Source of the DNA: a virus
Direction: 5' to 3' (one strand)
DNA: 24,758 bases
Virus record (IMG/VR): IMGVR_UViG_3300042945_002475
Coordinates: 1-24,758 of that record
Of the stretch, positions 11,570 to 12,650 are shown in pieces. Within the stretch, counting starts at the first letter, position 1. Each line of letters begins with the position of its first letter. Below the pieces are notes generated by a model. The model saw only the letters and a list, made by a program, of their open reading frames with translations, had not been told where the DNA came from and ran no database searches. Made by a program: the position numbers and the translations under genes.

Positions 11570-11586
11570 TTTTTTACGAAAAAAAT

Positions 11587-11617
11587 TTGATTAATCTAAA
11601 TATATGTTTTACATTTG
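11587..11617 (+). promoter_or_regulatory. Bacteroidetes-type promoter of the RNA cluster (TTG-N20-TAcaTTTG)
   Basis: TTG at 11587-11589, 20 bases, then TAcaTTTG at 11610-11617. The first tRNA-like element begins 13 bases after the -7 box, so the transcript would start only about six bases before its acceptor stem. The same -7 sequence (TAcaTTTG) drives the sigma-factor gene. Confidence 0.8.
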
Positions 11618-11629
11618 TAAAAAAAAGTT

Positions 11630-11711
11630 AGTCAGGAGTGTAAAGAGACATGGTGTTGAATCCATCTGTTATAGATGGTTGCTCATTGTAGGTTCGAATC
11701 CTATCCTGACT
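11630..11711 (+). ncRNA. tRNA-like element 1 with irregular D and variable regions
   Basis: AGTCAGG (11630-11636) pairs fully with CCTGACT (11705-11711). Inside is a perfect T arm: GTAGG, TTCGAAT, CCTAT (11688-11704). An anticodon-like arm is also perfect: CCATC, TGTTATA, GATGG (11662-11678). The rest is not canonical. No four-pair D stem lies in the right place, 25 bases separate the acceptor from the anticodon stem (about 20 expected), and the variable region has 9 bases. Position 33 of the loop is G, not T. Read by loop position the anticodon would be TTA; read by the T-GTT-A context it would be GTT (Asn). It may be an odd tRNA-Asn, a degraded tRNA or a tRNA mimic. Confidence 0.55.
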
Positions 11712-11788
11712 TCAACTAAGGAAGCAATATGAGAGTCCTGAATTGTACACAAAATATCCGTATTGACATCTCGGAAAGACGAGAAAAT
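11712..11788 (+). other. 77-base spacer between the two tRNA-like elements, with hairpin
   Basis: This spacer is less AT-rich than the surrounding genes. It has a hairpin TCTCG (11769-11773) with CGAGA (11780-11784). It also carries TCCTGA at 11736-11741, which could pair with the TCAGG of either tRNA-like acceptor (11632-11636 or 11791-11795), so alternative folds are possible. Cleavage at the flanking tRNA-like ends would release it as a small RNA. A 30-codon frame crosses it but does not look like a gene. Confidence 0.4.
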
Positions 11789-11854
11789 AGTCAGGTGGCG
11801 TTATTGGAGTACGCATCGTAAATGAGGATTACAGGTTCGAATCCTGTCCTGACT
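11789..11854 (+). ncRNA. tRNA-like element 2 with shortened anticodon region
   Basis: AGTCAGG (11789-11795) pairs with CCTGACT (11848-11854), the same acceptor stem as element 1. T8-G9 is followed by a perfect D arm, GCGT/ACGC (11798-11801 and 11811-11814), around a nine-base loop with the GG pair, and by a perfect T arm, ACAGG, TTCGAAT, CCTGT (11831-11847). Only 16 bases (11815-11830) remain between D stem and T arm, where about 22 are needed. At best ATC/GAT could form a three-pair stem. It is 66 bases long. The acceptor, D and T arms are intact while the anticodon arm is reduced, so it is unlikely to decode normally. Confidence 0.55.
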
Positions 11855-11867
11855 GCTAAATTAACTT

Positions 11868-11940
11868 GGTCCCGTGGTTGAATGGTTACAATTCCACCCT
11901 GTCACGGTGCGAGATACGGGTTCGAATCCCGTCGGGACCG
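11868..11940 (+). tRNA. tRNA-Asp (anticodon GTC)
   Basis: GGTCCCG (11868-11874) pairs with CGGGACC (11933-11939), discriminator G at 11940. The D arm GTTG/CAAT (one G-T pair), anticodon stem CCACC with GGTGC (four of five pairs), loop CTGTCAC with anticodon GTC, and T arm ACGGG, TTCGAAT, CCCGT are all in place. It decodes GAC and GAT as Asp. The 3' CCA is not encoded and must be added. It follows tRNA-like element 2 by 13 bases and probably shares its promoter at 11587. Confidence 0.93.
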
Positions 11941-11964
11941 CAAAACTTATTAAAATTAAAAAAT

Positions 11965-12245: not shown

Positions 12246-12650
12246 ATGTACGGGATTTGTTTACAATGTAATAATAAATTTTCCTACTTACCCAGTCAAT
12301 CCCATGGTAAGTTTTGTTCAAACCGATGTCAAGGAGACCACCATCTCGATAAAAGATTTCAAACAGGGACCACCTGGAATAATGCAATGTCAAAGTATGT
12401 TAAACGAATCAGAGGCAACACTTGCGAAAGTTGTGGAATAAGTGATTGGAATAAAAAACCTTTAACATTTCAGGTTGACCATGTTGACGGAAATCGAAAA
12501 AACAATAATTTTTATAATTTAAAAGTCTTGTGTCCGAATTGTCATTCACAGACAGAAACATTTGGTCATAAAAACGTGACCAAAGAGGGTAAAAATAAAT
12601 TTATAGAGTTAATCAATAAAAATAGAAAACCAAAAAAAATAAAACTCTGA
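12246..12650 (+). CDS. HNH endonuclease with N-terminal zinc finger
   Basis: The 134-residue product starts with a Cys4 zinc finger (C5, C8, C24, C28). A basic linker follows and then an HNH domain: CESCG at 60-64, FQVDHVDGNRKNN with Asp78-His79, NLKVLCPNCHSQT with the second zinc pair C96/C99 and His100. This beta-beta-alpha-metal fold cuts DNA; the zinc finger probably binds the target. Free-standing HNH genes in phages are often mobile homing endonucleases that insert next to tRNA or other conserved genes. It lies 300 bases after tRNA-Asp. Its ORF overlaps the next start by one base. Site preference cannot be inferred. Confidence 0.88.
   Translation: MYGICLQCNNKFSYLPSQSHGKFCSNRCQGDHHLDKRFQTGTTWNNAMSKYVKRIRGNTCESCGISDWNKKPLTFQVDHVDGNRKNNNFYNLKVLCPNCHSQTETFGHKNVTKEGKNKFIELINKNRKPKKIKL

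Follow-up and report, generated by a model that had tools for sequence, protein, structure and literature searches.

Phage tRNA gene clusters are commonly interpreted as aids to translation or as protection from tRNA-cutting defences. The tRNA-like domain of tmRNA keeps the upper half of a tRNA and has other structure in the place of the anticodon arm, and synthetic tRNA scaffolds carry foreign RNA in the place of the anticodon stem. A pseudo-tRNA that does not decode, tRNAOther of Bacillus cereus, is believed to lie within a regulatory RNA and is described in the excerpted source as one gene with a Trp anticodon and with no mention of a variable payload family (PMC3399842), and GOLLD and ROOL are large structured phage RNAs found near tRNA islands, with no function assigned in the excerpted account (PMC12286853).

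The window, i.e. the whole 24,758-nt stretch of viral DNA that was analysed, contains two tRNA-like elements that, together with their relatives, resemble each of these systems in part. As with tRNAOther, to which they are likened by description alone, the elements are tRNA-like, non-decoding and, on comparative grounds, apparently not decayed. The likeness to tmRNA is a tRNA upper half with a replaced anticodon arm, but acceptor pair 3-70 of the elements is T-A rather than G-T, and neither ARAGORN nor Rfam gave a tmRNA match at elements 1 and 2. GOLLD and ROOL are likewise structured and near tRNA islands, but according to the excerpted account are far larger and without a tRNA frame of their own, and there was no GOLLD or ROOL covariance match from Rfam in the window or in 12 further loci. 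Synthetic scaffolds are man-made, whereas the elements are natural and widespread. Ordinary phage tRNAs (RF00005) have the same acceptor, D-loop GG, T arm, T(-1), C74 and tRNA-gene neighbourhood, and several family members also pass the Rfam tRNA score; the elements differ in having no anticodon arm and in their length of 66-159 nt (within parse reach). The features of the locus are as follows.

11586-11617, plus strand: promoter-like site TTTG-N20-TACATTTG, of Bacteroidota -33/-7 type
11630-11711, plus strand: element 1, tRNA-like RNA, with T73 at 11712 and C74 at 11713
11630-11636, plus strand: element 1 acceptor 5' strand AGTCAGG, pairing with 11705-11711
11638-11639, plus strand: element 1 helix P2, 5' side GT, pairing with GC at 11681-11682
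11647-11657, plus strand: element 1 shifted D-type arm GAC-ATGGT-GTT, from comparison of 19 class members
11662-11678, plus strand: element 1 hairpin P4 CCATC-TGTTATA-GATGG, a perfect 5 bp/7 nt hairpin with a variable tip
11688-11704, plus strand: element 1 T arm GTAGG-TTCGAAT-CCTAT
11712-11788, plus strand: 77-nt spacer between elements 1 and 2, with hairpin TCTCG-GAAAGA-CGAGA at 11769-11784
11789-11854, plus strand: element 2, tRNA-like RNA, Rfam tRNA score 39.6 bits, with G73 at 11855 and C74 at 11856
11798-11814, plus strand: element 2 D arm GCGT-TATTGGAGT-ACGC
11815-11830, plus strand: element 2 payload ATC-GTAAATGAG-GAT plus T, 16 nt, without an anticodon arm
11831-11847, plus strand: element 2 T arm ACAGG-TTCGAAT-CCTGT
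11868-11941, plus strand: ordinary tRNA-Asp (GTC), called by ARAGORN and Rfam

The sequence-only reading of this locus had described two elements 77 bases apart with the same AGTCAGG/CCTGACT acceptors and closely similar T arms, leading into a normal tRNA-Asp, and all of this is present at the coordinates listed, as are the nine bases ahead of the T stem of element 1 (11679-11687) and the 16 bases that stand where the anticodon arm of element 2 belongs. The elements have the tRNA features of a 7-bp acceptor, a TTCRANN T arm and a D-loop GG, the T loop having formed part of the search patterns, and the pattern of acceptor, T arm and acceptor is expected 0.00 times in dinucleotide shuffles of the window. 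Element 2 passes the Rfam tRNA model at 39.6 bits, whereas element 1, at 21.2 bits, falls below the cut-off of 29; both were missed by ARAGORN, whose sole call there was the tRNA-Asp. A strict anticodon arm (5 bp and 7 nt, with U33 and a purine at 37) is absent from both, and hairpin P4 of element 1 has G at the U33 position. The sequence-only reading had also denied element 1 a proper D stem, which does not hold, as a D-type arm is present, starting 8 nt downstream of the usual tRNA position; it is visible only by comparison with relatives, and the comparative structure of element 1 was not reproduced by its single-sequence minimum-energy fold.

The window encodes a Y-family polymerase, a UvrC-like nuclease, a thymidylate synthase and an endolysin. 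Three IMG/VR contigs (L129, L130 and L131, one of them 187 kb) are 99.98% identical to it over the compared parts, and the terminase of the 187-kb relative is distant from the records listed, among which it is 29% identical to uncultured LR756508.1 and 27% identical to Flavobacterium phage immuto. Element 2 recurs with two changes in three phages (L087, L132 and L133) that otherwise resemble the window only in patches of about 70-80%. The block common to the window and these phages, 11691-11854 at 92.7% identity, thus includes the whole spacer as well as element 2, and in the place of element 1 an ordinary tRNA-Ile is joined to the same spacer. Ordinary tRNAs in relatives had been named as a sign of simple mutation; such a tRNA does stand at this place in these phages, but as a replacement for element 1 and not as its unmutated form. 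A weak HNH endonuclease match was seen at 12246-12647, in the second open reading frame after the tRNA-Asp, and may represent a homing nuclease associated with the tRNA cluster.

Relatives of element 1 form a class of 19 distinct sequences, in which the window copy is represented by the identical L129. All follow a layout, also found in element 1, of acceptor, P2 (two bases before GTAA paired with two after GGTT), a D-type arm following GTAA(T/A), a hairpin opened by CC and closed by GG whose tip spans from 3 to about 47 nt, a GGTTRC-type motif and the T arm. Positions were paired in 38/38 cells of P2 (matched by 3/2000 shuffles), 57/57 of the D arm (0/2000 shuffles; partly so by construction, since the parser seeks pairing D arms and a small number of fields were assigned manually), 85/90 of the T stem (0/2000 shuffles, one member's T stem being excluded) and 132/133 of the acceptor; a MAFFT alignment of the class was discarded. 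Double changes affected both pairs of P2, each of the three pairs of the D arm, and two pairs each in the acceptor and the T stem. In the T stem, the pairs with a double change (2/5) do not exceed shuffles (1.93) and the evidence there is the count of paired cells, and the CC/GG pairs are invariant and so prove nothing. The sequence changes in the D arm are themselves real (GGC/GCC, GGA/TCC, GGG/CCC, GAC/GTT, GTG/CAC and AAG/CTT), and the class appears to have its own covarying fold with a genuine shifted D arm.

Beyond this class, an acceptor and T arm surrounding a foreign middle were found in at least 120 IMG/VR stretches by the pattern AGTCAGG-N(40-68)-TTCGAATCCTNTCCTGACT, a lower bound, the matches listed from this first scan numbering 137, two of them from the window's own locus. 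The same pattern matched 2 contigs in a genome collection of 84,980 species, both of them metagenome-assembled genomes of Bacteroidota (Saprospiraceae and Chitinophagaceae), and the commonest element type therefore appears nearly absent from bacterial and archaeal genomes. With up to two mismatches, the 3' end occurred in 20/20 carrier records searched whole, at 1-12 copies each, and the reversed pattern did not occur. A terminase profile matched in 11/15 carrier records; three of these 11 terminases were compared with named phages: the first shares 55% identity with its counterpart in Flavobacterium phage immuto, the second 32-39% with huge-phage and Prevotella Lak terminases, and the third is the distant terminase of the 187-kb record. 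An exact 31-base 3' variant was present in 39 stretches from 38 contigs and in 4/111 contigs of the first scan, from which four counts the family can be extrapolated, very roughly, to the order of a thousand viral contigs. Family elements adjoin ordinary tRNA genes in many loci. When 12 loci were compared with Rfam, 93/93 matches were to tRNA (RF00005), with no other family reaching gathering scores in these loci or in the window. Titles and abstract openings among the matches listed from the open-licence PMC literature held no description of the family, which is apparently undescribed so far.

The retention of the top half and the loss of the decoding half, noticed for the two window elements in the sequence-only reading, proved right and general across the family. 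A strict anticodon arm was found in 2/230 elements (shuffled middles, 1.07%) versus 284/344 ordinary tRNAs from the same loci. The larger set of 409, drawn partly from scans requiring a long insert, gave 4/409 versus 3.4 +- 1.8 in shuffles, two of the four carriers being ordinary-looking tRNA-Lys genes with the AGTCAGG acceptor. C74 followed 229/230 elements versus 337/344 ordinary tRNAs from the same loci, and T(-1) preceded 184/230 versus 229/344, the scans behind these elements having fixed neither position (178/178 and 145/178, respectively, in a first count); the counts for the set of 409 were left out because later search patterns bias both positions. Since both signals are at least as common as in tRNAs, tRNA-type maturation of the family elements is suggested. 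D-loop GG was present in 206/230 elements versus 341/344 ordinary tRNAs.

Because the first scans fixed AGTCAGG, an additional scan was run with the acceptor left free, requiring a tRNA-Leu-like D arm, an insert of 42-72 nt, which is longer than an ordinary tRNA-Leu allows, and the T loop; its counts are lower bounds. Among 94 distinct elements in new loci, 46 still had AGTCAGG on the 5' side, and pairing of the acceptor was at least 6/7 in 87 and complete in 80, with seven unpaired. The remaining elements without AGTCAGG had at least 6/7 pairs in 44/48 cases versus 5.3 (maximum 10) after random re-pairing of strands, so that the acceptor is best described as a conserved helix with one favoured sequence. 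The observation that the two window acceptors match is thus real, but reflects one dominant acceptor class and not a requirement, as 35 different paired acceptors occurred among the 94. The acceptor covariation looked for in relatives is present. Further, 15/67 payload clusters with multiple members had more than one acceptor, three of the 15 with acceptors differing at three or more of seven positions, and related payloads thus appear to sit on different acceptors. There was no strict anticodon arm in any of the 105 elements of the acceptor-free pattern set, old loci included.

Anticodon-less tRNA-like sequences that have other acceptors, with compensatory changes in the acceptor from one homologue to another, were also seen at L007:4013(-) and L108:4255(+), and at L079:3290(+) and L123:2772(-). 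Elements at L163, L165, L167 and L186 have an intact D arm, insert and T loop with an unpaired 3' acceptor strand, and are perhaps broken or recombined copies.

The payloads of the 409 elements fell into 305 sequence clusters, 243 of them with a single member, and the first 230 elements into 193; the cluster count rose near-linearly with sampling and rarefaction did not saturate. Clustering overstates unrelatedness, with 16 members of the element 1 class that share a common fold spread over 12 clusters. Within clusters, median payload identity was 0.89 versus 0.486 and 0.484 for the 60 nt on each side (55 complete comparisons in the first set), the background for unrelated flanks being 0.489 +- 0.051; since payload similarity is what defines a cluster, it is only the difference from the flanks that counts as evidence. 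Some pairs do have common flanks (e.g. L079/L123, L030/L065 and L033/L038/L051). The elements accordingly behave as separate units whose sequence is largely preserved even where the surroundings are unrelated.

Substitutions in related payloads touched fewer predicted pairs than random placement would give. Across 33 comparisons with 199 substitutions, in which structure was taken from one sequence and pairs more than 35% different were excluded, substitutions touched 61 pairs versus 88.1 +- 5.3 under random placement, 65.6% of the touched pairs were kept versus 38.6 +- 4.0% expected, and there were 14 double compensations versus 3.2 +- 1.6 expected (maximum 8 in 200 runs). Folding energy was only moderately below shuffles (mean z -0.73, n=187), as compared with -1.23 for the middles of ordinary tRNAs (n=148) and -0.25 for downstream stretches (n=192). 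The flank contrast, the kept pairs and the compensations together make selected structures, rather than debris, the best reading of the payloads, although part of their diversity could lie in sequence that merely has to fold.

Taken together, these results give about an even chance that elements 1 and 2 belong to a large phage family of non-decoding tRNA-like RNAs which are matured as tRNAs and carry exchangeable structured payloads, and they suggest that phages reuse the tRNA frame for many different non-decoding RNAs. Selection for a non-decoding tRNA-like RNA, one of the possibilities raised from the window alone, gains comparative support, given that loss of decoding beneath a retained top half is general and that decay is contradicted. 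Host RNase P and RNase Z would release the RNAs, CCA would be added, and the products would be stable like tRNAs, such that the tRNA half would act as a cassette for processing and stability. The active part would be the payload, with exchange or remodelling frequent enough for most phages to differ in the payloads they carry. Most likely, the payload would be a structured decoy or binder of host factors, e.g. components of anti-phage defence or of translation, as a common frame with many different, individually conserved payloads suits an arms race. A more far-reaching form of this proposal, which is tentative and has the lesser probability, is that an unchanging tRNA body serves as the chassis for an unlimited repertoire of structured effector RNAs, of which each phage carries between one and a dozen and which pass from phage to phage and diversify under conflict with host defence, i.e. 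an RNA weapon or shield with constant and variable domains that is matured by the host's own tRNA enzymes.

The strongest rival, at least for part of the family, is that the elements are charged by synthetases that do not depend on the anticodon, LeuRS especially, and serve as aminoacyl carriers in a non-ribosomal reaction or as sinks that sequester synthetase or EF-Tu. Bacterial LeuRS disregards the anticodon, the elements retain acceptor, D arm and T arm, their common D arm TGGCGGAATTGGTAGACGC resembles that of tRNA-Leu, and A73 is present in 207/230 elements. However, the variety of paired acceptors and the several D-arm types, that of element 1 included, speak against it, as do T73 in element 1 and G73 in element 2, and payload structure that is both conserved and diverse is left unexplained. 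For the family as a whole this explanation is unlikely.

Improbable, too, is that the tRNA half is a processing signal directing RNase P and RNase Z cuts that free the spacer RNAs, with the middle as filler. A recurrent spacer hairpin module, TGAC..CTYGGAAAGAC.., stands just upstream of a family member in 14/23 pattern matches, and the spacer before element 2 is shared along with element 2 in the three related phages, both in favour of this reading. The selection on payload structure itself runs counter to a filler, the upstream DNA is unrelated in most element pairs, and the adjoining ordinary tRNAs would serve equally well.

The sharp borders in most pairs between like elements and unrelated flanks, and the finding of one and the same element downstream of differing sequence (L010 and L011), could instead be those of mobile DNA cassettes with the acceptor strands as terminal inverted repeats and any RNA incidental. 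This is very improbable, as the D arm, T arm, T(-1) and C74 are tRNA features without a role in DNA mobility, the payload stems covary, and element 2 is common to relatives together with 77 nt of spacer.

Decay of old tRNA genes, in which the decoding half has rotted away, had been the first explanation offered for the window, and it draws on the many elements among tRNA genes, the D arm resembling that of tRNA-Leu in most elements, the two tRNA-Lys genes with the AGTCAGG acceptor, and complete second T-arm-like sequences inside some payloads (e.g. GTCGGTTCGAGTCCGAT; L020, L030, L058, L115, L122 and L012), which look like nested tRNA pieces, as if assembled from them. It is contradicted by compensatory changes in the acceptors, in the helices of the element 1 class and in the payload stems, and by most homologous pairs remaining alike while their flanks differ; the T(-1) and C74 signals are also the same as in neighbouring tRNAs. 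By this comparative evidence, decay already appears strongly disfavoured. The least credible explanation, that the elements still function as tRNAs, though very aberrant ones with unusual anticodon loops, suppressors of frameshifts or stop codons among them, can point to mitochondrial tRNAs that still decode without arms and to the ARAGORN calls for some elements, but has against it canonical anticodon arms at chance rate, just 16 nt between the D and T stems of element 2, and ordinary tRNAs alongside in many loci.

A family that keeps everything except decoding implies that phages use the tRNA frame for something else as well. ARAGORN leaves many elements uncalled and labels others tRNA-??? 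or gives them odd anticodons; such labels are best read as misannotation, and elements missed or misnamed in this way distort counts of phage tRNA repertoires. If the payloads are effectors, they would amount to a sizeable natural collection of RNA ligands directed at host factors, and a role of non-translational tRNA-like RNAs would become directly testable.

A search for targets compared 186 payload representatives with the fetched phage DNA, family elements being masked, and the best 40 of 434 matches at E<1 were considered. At E<0.01 there were 33 matches versus 3 for shuffled and 3 for reversed payloads; 26/33 adjoin a T loop and are probably other tRNA-like or tRNA genes, which leaves 7 away from tRNA-like context versus 3 and 3 in the controls, or 45 versus 23 and 28 at E<0.1. 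The excess of payload matches in phage DNA is thus small. One element 1 class member (L004, 9713) has a 17-nt payload stretch exactly complementary to positions 11799-11815 and 12450-12466 of its own phage (E 0.004 each, where controls gave 3 matches each at E<0.01 in all), which could be either chance or a target; these two places are among the seven matches that remain. There does not appear to be a common protein partner among open reading frames of at least 80 aa around the elements, the widest blastp family in the top 30 covering 22 loci.

The AGTCAGG-type 3' end was also sought in nine records (Flavobacterium phage immuto, Microcystis phage Mel-JY01, PAU, Lak-C1 and five uncultured huge phages), of which one, LR756501.1, matched, with the variant acceptor AGTTAAG/CTTAACT. 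There was no near match for L189 among phages or for L187 among plasmids. At 778-1735 of Tenacibaculum phage pT24 (L134), a tRNA with a CTA anticodon, two nearly identical tRNA-Undet genes of a different acceptor type and an odd tRNA-Pro were seen, making this phage a possible cultured entry point. ARAGORN also called tmRNA genes in the family-carrying phage contigs L009, L031 and L125, away from the elements.

The elements had been credited with their own promoter, for which there is little sign, as a sigma-70 scan gave 3 promoter-like sites versus 3.0 in shuffles. By what is presumably the Bacteroidota -33/-7 consensus, TTTG-N19..21-TANNTTTG matched seven times on the plus strand of the window, once (as TTTG-N20-TANNTTTG) at 11586-11617. 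Across the family, TANNTTTG lay within 60 nt upstream of 12/193 cluster representatives versus 4.8 +- 2.1 in shuffles, a weak enrichment, with 4/190 farther upstream and 5/192 downstream.

The spacer hairpin module, TGAC..CTYGGAAAGACRRG, lies approximately 25 nt upstream of family members, with a stem that varies while pairing is kept, and was seen at 11769-11784 in the window and in L007, L056, L072, L101, L111 and others; copies in L021 and L080 are followed by T runs instead of family members, and the module may be an additional RNA element. Another recurrent upstream hairpin, CACAGAGGACTTCTCATCCTCAAC, precedes family members in 6/8 matches, and a third, CTCAC..GTAATCTCA..GGTG, in 2/3. Both occur ahead of other sequence too, and their loci upstream of elements are L069, L076, L080, L112 and L015, and L027 and L102.
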